NCBI GenBank assembly: GCA_947599875.1
Contig: CANQFV010000018.1
Coordinates: 1-49,588 of the forward strand
DNA: 49,588 nt
Direction: 5' to 3'
Source of the DNA: an uncultured Oscillospiraceae bacterium
GTDB taxonomy: Bacteria; Bacillota; Clostridia; Oscillospirales; Oscillospiraceae
Of the stretch, positions 6,423 through 49,588 are shown one piece after another. Positions within the stretch are counted from its first letter, which is position 1; each line of letters opens with the position of its first letter. A program made the position numbers and the translations under genes. The notes under the pieces are model-generated. The model ran no database searches, was not told the origin of the DNA, and saw nothing but the letters and a program-made list of their open reading frames with translations.

Positions 6423-6772
6423 GCCGGTGTTACACGGGGACGGTTCCTTTCGTCGTCGCGAAAGCCGCTTAACCTCGCCGCCACGCCAGCGTGACGGCTC
6501 AGGCGTGGGCTTTGCTCCTCCTCTCCCCACGCAATCACGATTGCGTGGGGACCCGGTATGCCGTCCCCAGGCACCCGATAAAGGCGGGACTGAGGGACGG
6601 TTTTTTTGTCACACCGCAGGTGGGACTAAAGAACCGTCCCTCTGTAACGCCGGGTCAGGGCCTGCGACGTTTGCGGAAGCCGGTGTGACACGGGGACGGT
6701 TCCTTAGTCACACCAGTGTGCGCACTGGTGGTACAAAGAAACCGTCCCCGCTGTCCCACCTCCTCAAAGAAA
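6423..6772. repeat. Array of three GGACGGTT inverted-repeat units
   Basis: Unit a (6423-6575) is a long form with about 120 nt inside, including CCCACGCAATC / GATTGCGTGGG. Unit b (about 6584-6652) has AGGGACGG arms with outer flanks GGCGGGACTGAG and TCTGTAACGCCGGGTC. Unit c (6677-6772) has GGGGACGG arms with outer flanks GCCGGTGTGACAC and CTGTCCCACCTCCTCA and a central CACCAGTG stem. The whole 1.4-kb gap from ddl to pyrI is repeat DNA with no credible gene. Confidence 0.85.
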
Positions 6773-6806
6773 CGAAAATAGAGCGTTACCATCCATCCAA
6801 TCTGTA

Positions 6807-7111
6807 CGGGCCGCCGCCCACGGCGGCCCGCGTTGGTTGAACTGCGTTGAATCGTTACCCGGTAGTAATCGAAACCCGGGCCGACGAGGTCGTCGGCCCC
6901 TACGGCAAGGACGAAGGTTTGTACGTTGACCGCGAGATGTTGGAGTATTTCGGCAGGCGGGCCGCCGTGGGCGGCGGCCCCTACAGTCTGTAAGAGCCCC
7001 TTGTAGGGGCCGATGACCTCATCGGCCCGGGTAGGTTGGGTGACAGAGCGGTTGCGTTAAGATGGAAAACTTTAAACTTTGCCGTAGGGGCCGCCGCCCA
7101 CGGCGGCCCGT
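6807..7111. repeat. Cluster of GGGCCGCC / GGGCCGATGA palindromes
   Basis: Five short palindromes in about 300 nt: GGGCCGCCGCCCACGGCGGC type at 6809, 6960 and 7088, and GGGCCGA(T/C)GA type at about 6881 and 7008. They are usually bordered by CCCCTAC or GTAGGGG. The stretch 6980-7190 is an inverted copy of 46110-46290. Confidence 0.8.
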
Positions 7112-7171
7112 GTCGCGATGATGAGGGCGGTATAATAAACGGGGAAAGGGCAGCGTCAAGCATCACCGGAA

Positions 7172-7376
7172 GCCGGTGTGACACGGGGACGGTTCTTTAG
7201 TCCCATCTCCGCACGGCTCCGATGTGACGAAAGAACCGTCCCCGCTGTCCCACCTCCTCAGAAGATGGGGAGTTCCCCCGTGAAAGGCGGGACTTGAGGG
7301 ACGGTTCTTTTGTACCACCGCAGCGAAGCGGAGGTGTGACTAAAGAACCGTCCCTCTGTAACGCCGGGTCAAGGCC
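7172..7376. repeat. Composite GGACGGTT repeat, two subtypes side by side
   Basis: A GGGGACGG unit (7172-7260, flanks GCCGGTGTGACAC and CTGTCCCACCTCC) is followed by an AGGGACGG unit (about 7283-7376, flanks GGCGGGACTTGAG and TCTGTAACGCCGG). The same paired layout recurs inverted at 29.2, 45.8 and 46.4 kb with different central stems. Confidence 0.85.
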
Positions 7377-7421
7377 TCCGGTCAACGGAGAACGCCCCGC
7401 CCCGTAACCCCAATTCCAATA

Positions 7422-7681
7422 TTTTTTGCGGGGCTTTGCCTCGCAAAAAATCCCTCTTGCCGCGCAAACGTGCGCCCTTGGGCGTGCGCTGCAGCGCGGC
7501 AGCAGAAAGACCCGGCGTGAATTCCGCAGAATTCACACCGGGTCTTTCGCACGCATCCCCTTGGCATTGAAAGGCCGCAGGGGGTTACGCAAAAGCTCGG
7601 AACGGCGCTAAAAGTTGCCCTCGCCAGAAGGCCCCTGTGGCCTTTCAAGCCAGCTAAAACCCCTGCGGTCTTTCAAGCCAG
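7422..7681 (-). repeat. 3'-end mosaic hairpin element, copy A (after pyrI)
   Basis: Read from the pyrI end: CTGGC, a long variable hairpin-1 region, GCCAAGGGGATGCGTGCG, variable hairpin 2 (AAAGACCCGG... with CCGGGTCTTT), GCTGCCGCGC framework with inner stem GGGCG/CGCCC, then GGGATTTTTT and the GCGAGGC/GCCCCGC tail hairpin. It begins 7 nt after the pyrI stop. Its hairpin 1 is the same long variant as copy E at 49.3 kb. Confidence 0.85.
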
Positions 7682-22951: not shown

Positions 22952-22990
22952 CTCAGTCAATGAGAACCTTATTAAAAAATCATTCCAAAT

Positions 22991-23163
22991 ATTTTTTCCA
23001 AGGACATGTGCCTTGGAAAAAATCCCTCTTGCCGCGCAAACGTGCGCCCTTGGGCGTGCGCTGCGGCGCGGCAGCAGAATTCTCGGAGCGAAATTCTAAT
23101 TTCGCTCCGGGAATCCGCACGCCTCCCCTTGGCATTTGAAGGCCTTCAGGCCTTCAAAGCCAG
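22991..23163 (-). repeat. 3'-end mosaic hairpin element, copy B (after malK-like gene)
   Basis: Starts 2 nt after the stop codon. Hairpin 1 is TTTGAAGGCC-TGAA-GGCCTTCAAA; hairpin 2 has GGAGCGAAATT/AATTTCGCTCC; inner hairpin 3 is the GGGCG type of copy A; the tail is CCAAGGCACATGTCCTTGG flanked by T6/A6. The gap 22700-22990 otherwise holds only the repeats listed. Confidence 0.85.
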
Positions 23164-29005: not shown

Positions 29006-29400
29006 TCGCGGCACGGGCCGCCGTGGGCGGCGGCCCCTACGGCAAATTTTAAAGTTTTCCGTCTTAACGCAACCGCTCTGTCATCCAACCCGCCCGGGCC
29101 GATGGGGTCATCGGCCCCTACAGGGGGACTCTTACGGACAGTAGGGACCGCTGCTGTCGATAGTGCCTTGGATGGAGGTCATTCTCGTTGAACGAGACTC
29201 TTGACCCGGCGTTACAGAGGGACGGTTCTTTGGTCACACCTCCGCTGACGCTGCGGTGGTACAAAAGAACCGTCCCTCATGTCCCGCCTTTGACGGGGGA
29301 GCTTCCCGCCTTCTGAGGAGGTGGGACAAAGGGGACGGTTTCTTTGTACCACCAGTGCGCACACTGGTGTGACTAAGGAACCGTCCCCGTGTCACACCGG
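29006..29400. repeat. Long composite repeat, near-identical to 46166-46558
   Basis: In order: GGGCCGCC palindrome, TTAAAGTTTTCCGTCTTA, CGCAACCGCTCTGTCA, GGGCCGATG palindrome, CTTACGGACAGTAGGGACCG, CTCGTTGAACGAGAC, then an AGGGACGG unit followed by a GGGGACGG unit. The copy at 46.2 kb keeps the order and almost all bases; the differences concentrate in the central stems of the two GGACGGTT units. Confidence 0.9.
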
Positions 29401-29418
29401 CTCAGTCCACAGGGCGCG

Positions 29419-33404: not shown

Positions 33405-33674
33405 TTTTTTGCGGGGCTTTGCCTCGCAAAAAAACTCAAAATTTCAAATATTTTTTCCAAGGACATGTGCCTTGGAAAAAATCCCTCTTGCCGCGCAAGT
33501 GTACGGCCCTTCGGGCCGTGCGCGCAGCGCGGCAGCAGGGAATACGGCACAAAATTCACATTTTGGGCCGTATTCCCGCACGCATCCCCTTGGCAGGAAA
33601 AGGCCTTCAGGCCTTTTCCGCCAGCTTCCGTCCCCCTTGGCATTTGAAGGCCGCAAAGCGGCCTTCAAAGCCAG
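33405..33674 (-). repeat. 3'-end mosaic hairpin element, copy C (after rsmG), expanded
   Basis: The hairpin-1 module (CTGGC...GCCAAGGGG) occurs twice with different stems (TTTGAAGGCCGC and GGAAAAGGCC), and both known tail hairpins (CCAAGGCACATGTCCTTGG and GCGAGGCAAAGCCCCGC) are present in tandem. Hairpin 2 has GGGAATACGG/CCGTATTCCC; inner hairpin 3 has ACGGCCC/GGGCCGT. It reaches into the rsmG coding end. Confidence 0.85.
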
Positions 33675-40292: not shown

Positions 40293-40332
40293 AAAAAGTA
40301 TCGCCAAAGTGTCCTTGGGCGATACTTTTTTT
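40293..40332 (+). terminator. Terminator of rpsT
   Basis: 13-bp stem AAAAAGTATCGCC / GGCGATACTTTTT with a 12-nt loop, continuing in T's. Confidence 0.9.
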
Positions 40333-40382
40333 CCGCCCGGAAAACGGGCCGGACGGCGCCCTCCGCCCGGAAAAAGATGTTG

Positions 40383-40430
40383 AAAAAGCCCCTGAATTTC
40401 GGGAGATCTCCCGAAATTCAGGGGCTTTTT
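40383..40430. terminator. Bidirectional terminator between rpsT and the PflX gene
   Basis: 48-nt perfect palindrome with A5 at one edge and T5 at the other and GCCCCTGAATTTCGGGAG in the arm. It separates the convergent rpsT and pflX-like genes. Confidence 0.85.
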
Positions 40431-40468
40431 CCCGCCGCCGGGCCCCCAGGGGGCGGTTTTTGCCAAAA

Positions 40469-43526: not shown

Positions 43527-45577
43527 CGGATCAGGAAATGGAACGCAAGCTGAAAAACGCCATAGAGCGTTCGGCCCCCGACGGGCTGGAGCGGCTCCTC
43601 TCCGCTGTTGACAACGGGAAAGGAGCCATCAAGATGGAAAAGACCAATCATTTGAAAAAGAAAAACCGCTGGATCGGCCTTGTGGCCGCCATTCTGGCCG
43701 TGGCCCTGATCGGCGGGGCGGGCGGCGTCTACTACTCCCGGAACGTGGCCGTGGCCACGGTGGTATCCCTGGATGTGAACCCCAGCATCGAGCTGCGGGT
43801 CAACGCCTCCCAGCGGGTTTTGAAGTGCCTGGCCCTGAACGGGGAGGCCGGGGAGATTCTGTCCTCCATGTCGGGCGGCGCGGATCTGGAGGGGGCCAAG
43901 CTGGACGTGGCCGTCAACGCCATTGTGGGGGCCATTGTCCGGGCCGGATATCTGGACAGCCTCAGCTCCGCCATCCTCATCTCCGTGGAGGACCGGGATC
44001 AGTCCCGGGGCGCCAGGCTCCAGGCGGAGCTTGTGGCCACGGTGGACGGGGTTTTGAAAACCGCCTCCAACTCCGCCGGGGTGATGAGCCAGAGCGTGAC
44101 CGGCGGCCGGGAGCTGGATAAGCAGGCCCAGGAGAACAACATCTCCTCCGGCAAGGCGGCCCTGGTCAACCAGGTGCTGGATCTCAATTCCTCCCTGGAT
44201 TTCGCGGAGCTGTCCAAGCTCTCCGTGGAGGAGCTGCGGGACCTCATCCACATCGGCGCGCCGGCCATGCTCATCGGGCGCGACGCCGCCGCCCGCATCG
44301 CCGAGGAGAGCGCCGGGGTCAGCGGCATCGACGGTTATCTCACCCAGTTTACCCAGGTTGACCCGGAGATCGACGACCCCGTCCCCAACTACGAGGTGGA
44401 GATCAACTGGGGGGGCAAGGAGTACAAGTATGAGATCGACGCCTTTACCGGTGAGATCCTCACCAGCCGTGTGCCGCCGGAGGCCCTCCCCGACCAGGCT
44501 GTTACCACCGAGGATGAGGCCTTTAACGCCGCCGCCGAGTATTTTTCCCAGCAGCACCCGGAGCTTATCGGCAACTTCCTGAATATCGAAAGCCGGTACG
44601 ACGCCCAGGACGGCCATTTTGAGGTGGAATTCTGGTGCCGGGGATGGGAGTTTGAGTACGAGGTGGACGGCCAGACCGGGAAAGTCCTGCGGGAGGAGAC
44701 GGATTACCGCTACACCGCCCCCACACAGACGGATACGCCCTCCACGCCGGATCAGCCGGATACGCCCACCCAACCCACGCAGCCGGATACGCCCTCCCAA
44801 CCCACACAGCCGGATACGCCCGCTCAACCCACGCAGCCGGATACGCCTTCCAAACCCGCCCAGACCGGGGACATCGGGGCGGAGGCGGCCAAGGACGCGG
44901 CCCTGAAGGACGCCGGACTCTCCGCGGCGGAGGTCACCTTCCTCCACGCCAAGGCGGACTATGAGGACGGAAGGCCGGTGTACGACGTGGACTTCTACAC
45001 CGATACAAACGAGTATGACTACGAGATCGACGCCGCCACCGGGGCCATTCTCAAGGGCGAGGTGGAGAAGCGGCCCGGCGCCGTGACGCCTCCCGCCACG
45101 GATCCCGGCTCCACCGGGGACATCGGCGAGGCGGCGGCCAAGGACGCGGCCCTGAAGCGGGCCGGGATCACCGCCGCCGTGGATTGGATCCGGGTGGAAC
45201 ACGACTATGATAACGGCCGGCACTACTACGAACTGGAATTTGAGTGCGACGGCACGGTGTATGACTGCGACGTGGACGCCGCCACCGGTGACGTGGTGAA
45301 GTTCGAGTCGGAAAAATGCGACAACGTCCTGCACAACCACAACCAGGCCGGCTCCGGCCAGCCCCAGTCCGGGGACATCGGCGCCCAGGCCGCCAAGGAC
45401 GCGGCCCTGCGCCACGCCGGACTTTCCGAGTCCCAGGTCTCCCGCCTGAAGTGCGAAAAAGACCGGGACGACGGGAGAACGGTGTACGAGGTGGAGTTTA
45501 ACTCCAACGGCTGGGAGTACGAGTACAAGATCGACGCCGCCACCGGCGCGGTGCTGGAGCATGAACGGGATAAATAA
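43523..45577 (+). CDS. RsgI-like membrane anti-sigma factor with five PepSY-type repeats
   Basis: 684 residues. Short cytoplasmic N-terminus (1-48, sigma-binding), one membrane helix (50-71), then the RsgI-type juxtamembrane domain ATVVSLDVNPSIELRVN with an Asn86-Pro87 pair at the place where RsgI proteins self-cleave. Outside the cell follow two PepSY-like domains (about 272-318 and 326-395), a Pro/Thr/Gln linker of nine-residue repeats (about 405-449), and three more PepSY-like units (450-516, 532-597, 616-684), each ending YEIDAATGAIL or close. It likely holds the ECF sigma factor inactive until an envelope signal triggers cleavage. Its stop is 1 nt from mosaic element copy D. Confidence 0.85.
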   Translation: MTDQEMERKLKNAIERSAPDGLERLLSAVDNGKGAIKMEKTNHLKKKNRWIGLVAAILAVALIGGAGGVYYSRNVAVATVVSLDVNPSIELRVNASQRVLKCLALNGEAGEILSSMSGGADLEGAKLDVAVNAIVGAIVRAGYLDSLSSAILISVEDRDQSRGARLQAELVATVDGVLKTASNSAGVMSQSVTGGRELDKQAQENNISSGKAALVNQVLDLNSSLDFAELSKLSVEELRDLIHIGAPAMLIGRDAAARIAEESAGVSGIDGYLTQFTQVDPEIDDPVPNYEVEINWGGKEYKYEIDAFTGEILTSRVPPEALPDQAVTTEDEAFNAAAEYFSQQHPELIGNFLNIESRYDAQDGHFEVEFWCRGWEFEYEVDGQTGKVLREETDYRYTAPTQTDTPSTPDQPDTPTQPTQPDTPSQPTQPDTPAQPTQPDTPSKPAQTGDIGAEAAKDAALKDAGLSAAEVTFLHAKADYEDGRPVYDVDFYTDTNEYDYEIDAATGAILKGEVEKRPGAVTPPATDPGSTGDIGEAAAKDAALKRAGITAAVDWIRVEHDYDNGRHYYELEFECDGTVYDCDVDAATGDVVKFESEKCDNVLHNHNQAGSGQPQSGDIGAQAAKDAALRHAGLSESQVSRLKCEKDRDDGRTVYEVEFNSNGWEYEYKIDAATGAVLEHERDK
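44770..44853 (+). repeat. 27-bp coding tandem repeat in the linker of the RsgI-like gene
   Basis: Three copies of a unit encoding QPTQPDTP(S/A), with silent third-base differences, inside a longer Pro/Thr linker. Likely prone to length variation between strains. Confidence 0.8.
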
Positions 45578-45578
45578 A

Positions 45579-45780
45579 CTGGCGGAAAAGGGTTATGGGT
45601 TCTCTGATGAGAACCCATAACCCTTTTTCTGCCAAGGGGATGCGTGCGGAAAGGGCCCATCGAATTCTGCGGAATTCGATGGGCCCTTTCCTGCTGCCGC
45701 GCTGTGCGACCAGTCTGCGGACTGGTCACTTGCGCGGCATAAGGGATTTTTTCCAAGGCACATGTCCTTGGAAAAAATAT
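45579..45780 (+). repeat. 3'-end mosaic hairpin element, copy D (after the RsgI-like gene)
   Basis: The clearest copy. Hairpin 1 (45579-45636): CTGGC, GGAAAAGGGTTATGGGTTCTC with a perfect partner, TGCCAAGGGG. Hairpin 2 (45648-45691): a 20-bp perfect stem with tip GAATTC-TGCG-GAATTC. Hairpin 3 (45695-45739): TGCCGCGC/GCGCGGCA enclosing GACCAGTC-TGCG-GACTGGTC. Tail (45747-45777): T6, CCAAGGCACATGTCCTTGG, A6. Hairpin 1 here could work as a terminator. Confidence 0.9.
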
Positions 45781-45830
45781 TTGGATTGGGGACGCGGGAC
45801 GGAGGATTGTCCGTTGACCGGGGGCCTTCA

Positions 45831-46110
45831 CCCGGCGTTACAGAGGGACGGTTCTTTTGTCACACCTCCGCTTCGCTGCGGTGGTACAAAAGAACCGTCC
45901 CTCAAGTCCCGCCTTTCACGGAGGAACTTCCCGTCTTCTGAGGAGGTGGGACAGCGGGGACGGTTTCTTGTCGCAGGGGCCCCACGCAATCGTGATTGCG
46001 TGGGGAGAGGAGGAGCAAAGCCCGCGCCTGAGCCGTCACGCTCGCGTGGCGGCGAGGTTAAGCGGCTTTCGCAACGACGAAAAGAACCGTCCCCGTGTAA
46101 CACCGGCTTT
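45831..46110. repeat. Composite GGACGGTT repeat (two units, one long form)
   Basis: An AGGGACGG unit (from CCCGGCGTTACAG) with a CACCTCCGCTTCGCTGCGGTGG centre is followed by a long-form GGGGACGG unit containing CCCACGCAATCGTGATTGCG. No gene is seen in 45790-46660. Confidence 0.85.
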
Positions 46111-46165: not shown

Positions 46166-46558
46166 ACGCGGGCCGCCGTGGGCGGCGGCCCCTACGGCAA
46201 ATCTTAAAGTTTTCCGTCTTACCGCAACCGCTCTGTCACCCAACCCGCCCGGGCCGATGAGGTCATCGGCCCCTACAGGGGGACTCTTACGGACAGTAGG
46301 GACCGCTGCTGTCGATAGTGCCTTGGACGGAGGTCATTCTCGTTGAACGAGACTCTTGACCCGGCGTTACAGAGGGACGGTTCTTTAGTCACACCTCCGC
46401 TTCGCTGCGGTGGTACAAAAAAACCGTCCCTCAGTCCCGCCTTTTTCGGAGGGGCTTCCCGTCTTTTGAGGAGGTGGGACAAAGGGGACGGTTCTTTCGT
46501 CACATCGGAGCAAAGCGGAGATGGGACTAAAGAACCGTCCCCGTGTCACACCGGCCTC
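46166..46558. repeat. Long composite repeat, second copy of 29006-29400
   Basis: Same order and near-identical backbone as 29006-29400. The central stem of the last unit is CACATCGGAG.../...CGGAGATGG instead of CACCAGTG.../...CACTGGTG. The upstream 56 nt (46110-46165) also match, inverted, 7135-7190. Confidence 0.9.
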
Positions 46559-49177: not shown

Positions 49178-49340
49178 GAAGCGATTCCTCCATAAAGGCG
49201 ATAGCCCCCACTGTCGCCGAATTGCTTTACGCGGAGTTCTCCCAATCCGCAAAACTTAGCGAAAGCTAAGCGTTTCTCCCTCATTTTTGTAAAACCCCGC
49301 CCCTGGATTCTGAGGAATCCAGGGGCGGGGCTTTATTTTC
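49178..49340 (+). ncRNA. Candidate structured small RNA with C-rich single-stranded motifs
   Basis: About 160 nt from a -10-proximal start to a strong terminator, with no ORF. Predicted stems: AAGCGATTC/GAATTGCTT (9 bp) enclosing GGCGATAG-CCCCCA-CTGTCGCC (8 bp); GCGGA/TCCGC; CTTAGC-GAAA-GCTAAG (GNRA tetraloop); then the terminator. Unpaired parts hold CCTCC, CCCCCA, TCTCCC and TCTCCC, all complementary to AGGAGG-like ribosome sites, as in several Firmicute trans-acting RNAs. It follows the histidine kinase gene by about 100 nt. No Rfam family was recognised with confidence. Confidence 0.55.
49295..49340 (+). terminator. Terminator of the candidate small RNA
   Basis: 16-bp perfect stem CCCCGCCCCTGGATTC / GAATCCAGGGGCGGGG with a TGAG loop followed by CTTTATTTTC. 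One of the strongest terminators in the window. Confidence 0.9.
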
Positions 49341-49341
49341 G

Positions 49342-49588
49342 CTGGCTTGAAAGGCCGCAGGGGTTTAAGCCGGCTTGGCAGGCCACAGGGGTCTTCTGGC
49401 GCGGAAGCTTTCAGCGCCTTCCTACCCTGACGGTAAACCCCTGCGGCCTTTCAATGCCAAGGGGATGCGTGCGGAAAGGCCCGCTGGAATTCTTCGGAAT
49501 TCCGGCGGGCCTTTCCTGCTGCCGCGCTGCGCGACCAGTCTGCGGACTGGACACTTGCGCGGCAAGAGGGATTTTTTGCGAGGCAAAG
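49342..49588 (+). repeat. 3'-end mosaic hairpin element, copy E (cut by window end)
   Basis: Begins right after the small-RNA terminator with CTGGC. Hairpin 1 is the long variant also seen in copy A (TTGAAAGGCCGCAGGGGTTT with its partner about 100 nt later). Hairpin 2 has GGAAAGGCCCGC...GCGGGCCTTTCC around GAATTC-TTCG-GAATTC; inner hairpin 3 is the GACCAGTC type of copy D; the tail is the GCGAGGC type. The window ends inside the tail. Confidence 0.85.

Follow-up and report, generated by a model that had tools for sequence, protein, structure and literature searches.

What is the compact array of hairpins that recurs behind genes in an uncultured Oscillospiraceae bacterium, and what keeps its stems paired where their sequence is free to differ? 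We addressed this question from the window, meaning the whole stretch of 49,588 nucleotides analysed here, which lies on one contig (C18) of a 2.73 Mb genome assembled in 89 contigs (G000; other genomes and individual loci carry G and L numbers below). An earlier note on this DNA had described five copies of an element with a constant frame and exchangeable hairpins, and all five were recovered where it had placed them, at E-values of 2e-32 to 2e-24 with RNA model R1 and 1e-15 to 3e-4 with RNA model R2. The parts of the copy at 45579, followed by the other copies and one neighbouring hairpin, are:

45579..45633, + strand: hp1 (type T1), a CTGGC...GCC hairpin with A-run and T-run arms, beginning 1 nt past the stop codon
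45634..45649, + strand: frame AAGGGGATGCGTGCGG, common to the printed copies with small variations
45648..45690, + strand: hp2, with variable stem arms and the conserved tip GAATTCTGCGGAATTC
45691..45739, + strand: CTG linker and hp3, closing pair CTGCCGCGC/GCGCGGCA, matched by R2
45740..45746, + strand: spacer TAAGGGA (the AGAGGGA version stands in 88 of 117 copies)
45747..45777, + strand: hp4, TTTTTTCC...GGAAAAAA, where the R1 and R2 matches stop; kept in other genera
7422..7681, − strand: copy 1, with a long hp1 of type T4 (R1 7422-7553, R2 7420-7502)
22991..23163, − strand: copy 2, with a short hp1 (R1 22992-23121, R2 22990-23074)
33405..33674, − strand: copy 3 (R1 33451-33582, the R1 training sequence; R2 33449-33535)
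49342..49588, + strand: copy 5, its hp4 cut by the contig end (R1 49468-49588, R2 49519-49588)
49295..49330, + strand: terminator-like hairpin before copy 5, a 16-bp stem followed by CTTTATTTTC, a kind of target known from relatives

Copy 3 carries two hp1 modules in tandem, and a second hp4 module of another type (GCGAGGC) adjoins its own hp4 at 33405-33445. The window also holds many REP-like inverted repeats of the GGGACGGTTCTTTTGTCAC... type (e.g. 6674-7367, 29186-29402, 45812-45914 and 46341-46554), which in the printed copies often lie directly 3' of the element. The gene preceding the 45579 copy (44390-45555) encodes repeated segments and a 27-nt tandem repeat.

The window genome contains about 160 copies of the element. 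The pattern GTGCGN{33,47}CTGCTGCCGCGC matched G000 82 times on the forward and 80 times on the reverse strand (control with reversed pattern, 0 + 0), and CTGCTGCCGCGCT with one mismatch allowed gave 98 + 94 matches against 6 + 3 for its control. A search of the whole genome and of relatives, as the earlier note had proposed, thus yielded many further copies, with 162 pattern matches in G000 and occurrences in 20 other genera. For reading, 76 regions were taken from 113 listed places in G000, the places on C18 already lying within the window; of 122 anchors from a first finder, two proved spurious when read, and of 174 candidates from a second, 164 were accepted (120 in G000 and 44 in relatives), so that roughly 120 of about 160-190 G000 copies were read. 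Several G000 contigs, e.g. C5, C21, C25, C43, C49, C52 and C64, end in or near element copies, as the window does at 49588; judged by these contig ends, this suggests that the assembly breaks at element repeats.

Among 34 members of the window's genus, 22 had element matches by blastn. R1 had been trained on the window's genus, two records named 'Lapin' (taken to mean rabbit) and one window copy (33451-33582), and R2 on 28 cores (hp3 and hp4) from other genera; because the R2 training loci were found via R1, the two models are not fully independent. On the window, R2 returned the same five copies and three additional matches, each reading part of hp4 from the opposite strand. R1 gives scores of 25-31 bits to ordinary palindromes of the window as well, such as 40298-40437 (29 bits, ordinary palindromes on reading). 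Its E-values are therefore too favourable where the DNA is palindromic, and the number of family genomes matched at E 0.001, 95 of 200, is best taken as a maximum; at E 1e-9 the same 200-genome table holds 39 genomes in 23 genera (hand count). The RNA-model genome searches scored the best 15 or 16 candidates per genome, and per-genome copy counts from them are to be read as "at least". The hp3-hp4 core was present in all 48 other-genus loci taken, 42 of them by regular expression (17 genera) and the remaining six by R2 (three more genera), which makes 20 genera besides the window's. R2 matched G000, G066 and, weakly, one further genome (E 1.2e-5) among 292 drawn from the class, and a scan of the genome collection with the exact tail motif returned two records, both of them uncultured Oscillospiraceae 'Lapin'.

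The placement of copies relative to genes, as called by a purpose-made ORF scorer, is strongly skewed. In 103 of the 119 G000 copies with a called upstream feature (120 copies in all), the CTGGC end lies at a 3' end (100 gene ends and 3 tRNA ends), and the distance from stop codon to CTG is ≤15 nt in 79 of 91 measured copies; on the far side of these 3'-end copies stands a convergent gene in 48 cases and a tandem gene in 37, the remainder having no called gene. The fixed orientation that the earlier note had proposed, at 0-12 nt from the upstream feature, therefore holds as a strong bias but is not absolute, since 16 of the 119 copies face a gene start. The spacing is likewise looser than described: copy 5 begins 11 nt past the hairpin at 49295-49330 but about 260 nt past the called stop codon, and at copy 3 the stop codon called for the upstream gene falls within hp1 (33665-33674, CTGGCTTTGA; by inspection). 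Outside the window's genome, one copy (L205 in G280) was read in the opposite orientation directly after a gene end.

The likely origin of this placement is seen in relatives. In other genera and in congeners the element carries terminal inverted repeats, CAGNNTGTCRAAAA, and sits at an intrinsic terminator. The unit in other genera runs from CAGNNTGTCGAA to TTTTTYGACANNCTG and begins at the foot of a terminator hairpin, with the same hairpin repeated beyond it (e.g. L171, L155, L156); many copies are flanked left and right by direct repeats of the complete terminator palindrome, some 20-40 bp in length. By position and sequence, hp1 at 45579..45633 is the counterpart of the left terminal-repeat hairpin of these relatives (CTGTCGAAAAAG...; G179 copies compared by reading). 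A first scan, which required both ends and enough flank and could use 12 of 65 copies, found 9 of the 12 to score no lower than the 99th percentile for mismatched flank pairs; these were all nine other-genus copies (G064, G091, G245), and the three misses were G179 copies. The nine passing flank repeats also pass as inverted repeats, as expected of palindromes. An improved rule for the ends made 24 of the 42 copies from congeners testable, the other 18 having no recognisable end pair or too little flank; 14 of the 24 passed (13 of 19 in G179, 1 of 5 elsewhere) and 10 failed. Several of the non-passing copies (L095, L103, L124) stand, by reading, directly behind a stop codon with a single right hairpin, an arrangement like that in the window. 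G064 holds the core at both the L155 and the L156 site, whereas it is missing from all eight congener loci compared at the first (in one of them, G258, the sequence becomes unreadable poly-G) and from all seven at the second; by sequence comparison, this apparent insertion polymorphism counts for mobility. No clean empty site was obtained for L171, where the relatives differ downstream.

Ends of the same pattern and the same palindrome repeats were found on insertion sequences of the IS1182 family, in four of the six examined, three of them in the window's genus. The G020 element, from that genus, is 1496 bp long with ends CAGTTTGTCAAAAAA (compare CAGCTTGTCAAAAAA at the end of element copy L144, as read) and a perfect 31-bp palindrome repeat; the G066 element is 1522 bp long with ends CAGACTGTCGAARAAC and a palindrome repeat matching at 33 of 35 positions. 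Those in G171 and G176 have palindrome flanks on both sides of the ends CAGTCTGTCGACAAAC/CAGACTGTAGACAAAC, read from the alignment as the script's flank test began outside them. Some IS1182 members have long direct repeats. The two transposases tested scored 385 and 386 bits against an NCBIfam IS1182 cut-off of 270. Among PF13751 loci, 3 of 14 (L229, L233, L234) have a matching end pair, and the other 11, many of them fragments or other-ended, showed no such pair; L229 (G066, 354-aa frame) has differing hairpins on its two sides and no duplication, and the right end of the G173 insertion sequence was not found. By reading, L232 and L237 (G179) and L228 (G020) hold another IS1182-type insertion sequence, whose end (GGGGCTGTGAAAAAA) is different.

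Of the 22 congeners that bear the element, 8 have a full-score IS1182 transposase, against none of the 12 element-free ones (Fisher p 0.018, a value that ignores relatedness and sets the bearers against genomes of lower completeness); 14 of the 22 bearers are without one. All IS1182 matches in G179 lie below the cut-off, and no insertion sequence with matching ends was found there. As this one genome supplied 13 of the 14 congener copies that passed, confidence in the IS1182 connection is slightly reduced. In the window genome itself there was no PF13751 match, and the best NF033551 (IS1182) match reached 19 bits, with nothing above the cut-off.

Taken together, the ends in relatives, the terminator sites, the palindrome repeats and the likeness to IS1182 make it probable, on comparative sequence evidence, that the element is a non-autonomous, MITE-like element of Oscillospiraceae, a passenger moved in trans by IS1182-family transposases. 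The features expected of such elements are unevenly distributed. Terminal repeats matching IS1182 occur in relatives, with both ends on 24 of 42 congener copies, the right-hand one being recognisable in few window-genome copies; target duplications like those of the parent insertion sequence surround relatives' elements and four of six insertion sequences, and none is shown for the window copies. The element is small, about 170-300 bp of hairpins, and by reading has no transposase gene. Its interior does not come from the parent in the cases compared: R2 found no hp3-hp4 core in six IS1182 loci, and the element is therefore not a plain deletion derivative of the insertion sequence. The absence of any named element with this plan, as the earlier note had it, stands in so far as no Rfam RNA family covers it, but the element is of a mobile type, with IS1182-like ends and palindrome duplication. 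Nothing on Oscillospir- MITEs, palindrome duplication or covarying non-coding RNA in this group was found in the open-licence literature, which is weak evidence of absence.

Mechanistically, we infer that an IS1182 transposase acting in trans would recognise the target hairpin or cruciform, and that joining of the element at two opposite feet of the stem, followed by fill-in, would duplicate the whole stem-loop. The fixed orientation would then follow from the targeting of gene 3' ends. In G000, 8 of 120 copies have a right terminal repeat when three mismatches are allowed, whereas the reversed pattern is matched by 2 of 120, and by this comparison the G000 copies look like immobile descendants whose right ends have mostly decayed. 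As hp1 usually lies directly behind the stop codon in G000, it may now act as the gene's terminator.

This last step leads to an alternative that we hold to be possible rather than probable, and that is compatible with a mobile origin: a 3'-end element domesticated by the host, in which hp1 would terminate transcription, the modules would protect or process mRNA ends, and host selection would keep the pairing. The short distances to the stop codon (79 of 91 measured copies within 15 nt) and the pairing that is intact despite decayed ends fit such a role, as does site sharing between genomes: six of 36 congener copies, at four G000 sites, follow a gene ≥90% identical to that preceding a G000 copy, against an estimated 4% or so for random hits on about 2,500 genes. 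At one site read in three genomes (L041/L122/L116), the stems have different sequences although position and pairing are retained. A T-run is nevertheless missing from many hp1 types, GGCCTGAAGGCC among them, congener genes at the L155 and L156 sites manage without the element, and the site sharing is modest. Moreover, since terminators are insertion targets, repeated insertion can also produce shared sites; vertical inheritance and repeated use of a favoured target both fit.

Whichever agency placed the copies, their stems are held in pairing and their parts are exchanged. In an alignment of 37 diverse copies (A2, all drawn from the 49 rows of A1, 12 being left out), 96.7% of paired cells were complementary against 80.5% after shuffling, and 221 cells were double-changed against 61.6, with double changes in 22 of 36 pairs and 0 of 500 shuffles reaching the score; the shuffling takes no account of relatedness, and a single row supplied the structure. 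The double changes fall in 16 of 20 pairs of hp2 and 4 of 8 outer pairs of hp3. Pairing is thus conserved with free sequence, as the earlier note had proposed, and the stems do not drift without compensatory change. hp2 takes 90 distinct sequences in 117 copies, and the 52 T1 hairpins in G000 form 52 distinct wholes with 1237 Watson-Crick pairs against 21 mismatches, while hp3 and hp4 occur in few types each. Among T1 copies, per-base differences are 0.55 in the hp1 stem, 0.48 in the hp2 stem, 0.23 in hp4 and 0.005 in the frame between hp2 and hp3.

The types combine freely within this constant frame, bearing out the exchange of modules that had been suspected: 9 of 9 combinations of hp1 with hp3, 12 of 12 of hp3 with hp4 and 11 of 12 of hp1 with hp4 are present, as are 15 of the 24 possible hp3-hp4-tail combinations, and no association between module types was detected in five tests (p 0.18-0.67; 93-108 of 120 copies typable). 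Such independent assortment would be explained by recombination between copies inside the short invariant frames. Two other readings of T1 were rejected. Capture of the gene's own terminator was dropped, as outer arms and loop are common to T1 hairpins, and the 92 apparent solo T1 hairpins, from a scan covering element-bearing loci and judged as a group on reading, looked like opposite-strand readings of the same palindromes or edge cases. At L018, around position 2500, hp3 holds a larger nested hairpin array.

The hp3-hp4 core behaves differently from the free stems. We aligned 28 other-genus cores (A3, 28 of 32 rows; the outer-stem rule skipped six cores, L167, L172, L173, L179, L184 and L188), in which the non-Watson-Crick cells of the drawn pairs, read on the + strand, were A.C in 26 cases, G.T in one and others in 10. 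A tandem C.A/A.C is almost invariant (55 of 56 cells), and two positions hold either Watson-Crick pairs (29 cells) or mismatches, for the most part C.T/T.C (27 cells). Seen from the opposite strand, these mismatches become G.T (G.U) wobbles and tandem G.A pairs. By RNA energies, the opposite strand is the more stable in 27 of 28 other-genus, 62 of 70 G000 and 34 of 35 congener cores, against 79 of 164 control pieces. On these pairs and folding energies, the core is predicted to be a separate conserved structure that folds on the strand opposite the upstream gene, as RNA or single-stranded DNA. The suggestion of a folded RNA or DNA under selection thus finds support in the core but not in hp1 and hp2, which have no consistent strand preference (hp2 folding is unbiased in G000, p 0.30, and weakly biased in congeners, p 0.04).

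A promoter or a known family for this structure was also sought. In the 39 sequences from other genera and the 111 from G000, the best sigma-70 scores on the folding strand were equal to those of mononucleotide shuffles, and in G179 (n = 22) 14% of copies pass the shuffled 95th percentile on the folding strand and 41% on the other; a sigma-70 promoter of the core's own was rejected for want of clear enrichment over shuffles or the other strand. Rfam 15 gave only two tRNAs at gathering score on the window. A search of 12 loci, with E-values of up to 1 admitted, yielded a tRNA, a gyrA match that lay below threshold and covered the terminator side of L146, and two weak matches elsewhere, but none that fell on the core. 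A known structured RNA family was set aside, as no Rfam 15 family lay above its gathering threshold on the core. We can offer only as a speculative idea, on the doubtful side, that the core is itself a mobile entity, a structured non-coding RNA or a fold of single-stranded DNA, and as such a bacterial counterpart of SINEs that would spread via IS1182-type ends and hide at terminators. The question posed is why a passenger element should retain a core that folds on one particular strand, and do so in 20 genera other than that of the window.

The core also bears on whether the pairing of hp1 and hp2 might be kept by a mutational process, template switching between palindrome arms, in place of selection. 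The mismatches in T1 (six G.T, ten A.C) show no consistent strand preference, unlike those of a G.U-tolerant RNA helix, and in hp2 G.T and A.C stand at 21 and 13 in G000 (p 0.23) and at 6 and 17 in congeners (p 0.035); in this test hp4 could not be parsed in 9 of the 120 G000 copies and 3 of the 44 from congeners, nor hp3 in one and three, respectively. That 52 of 52 T1 hairpins differ as wholes, though the six-base middle of the stem has 27 forms in 42, would also suit template switching. We nonetheless think it unlikely, since identical non-Watson-Crick pairs recur in hp3 and hp4 from one genus to the next, which argues that palindromes here are not blindly perfected, and half-and-half hp2 recombinants persist, by reading, unrepaired.

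It is very improbable that the element belongs to an ordinary family of REP/BIME or BOX-type repeats mobilised by the tyrosine (Y1) transposases associated with REPs: it is palindromic, intergenic, high-copy and downstream of genes, as PMC3733652 describes REPs, and G000 has one weak Y1_Tnp match, but a PF01797 search across the genus found none in five element-bearing congeners (G020, G162, G163, G167 and G175, 92-99% complete), and the end pattern and palindrome duplications are common to IS1182 elements, so we rejected a Y1/RAYT origin as inconsistent. Group II introns and integron attC sites were considered and provisionally set aside.

The preferred reading, a MITE-like passenger of IS1182-type transposases, shares traits with several known systems. 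Like Rfam RNA families, the element keeps structure by compensatory change, but no family falls on its core. REP/BIME sequences are likewise palindromic and mostly downstream of coding regions, but PMC3733652 gives REPs as 20-40 bp and tied to Y1 transposases (RAYT), whereas the element has about 170-300 bp and IS1182-type ends. BOX elements of Streptococcus pneumoniae, too, are modular stem-loop repeats with IS-like ends (PMC3049150); by that description they keep a boxA, boxB, boxC order with boxB optional or repeated, whereas the element exchanges several slots, and palindrome duplication, present in the element's relatives, is not mentioned in the passages concerned. Common gut bacteria appear to carry a mobile element that remodels gene 3' ends, with about 160 copies in one genome. 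A further parallel is IS1272, which according to passages of PMC4923244 and PMC5678879 targets inverted repeats including terminator hairpins, and replaces or trims the target stem-loop with no target duplication. The targets are alike, and the transposases of the element's insertion-sequence partners belong to the same family; the element differs in having no transposase gene and a conserved multi-hairpin core, and in its case the whole stem-loop is duplicated. Joining at opposite stem feet is drawn in the IS1272 model as a possibility, pathway 'b' (PMC5678879), and the copies described here would provide natural cases, tied to IS1182, of the whole stem-loop duplication that stands there merely as an alternative.
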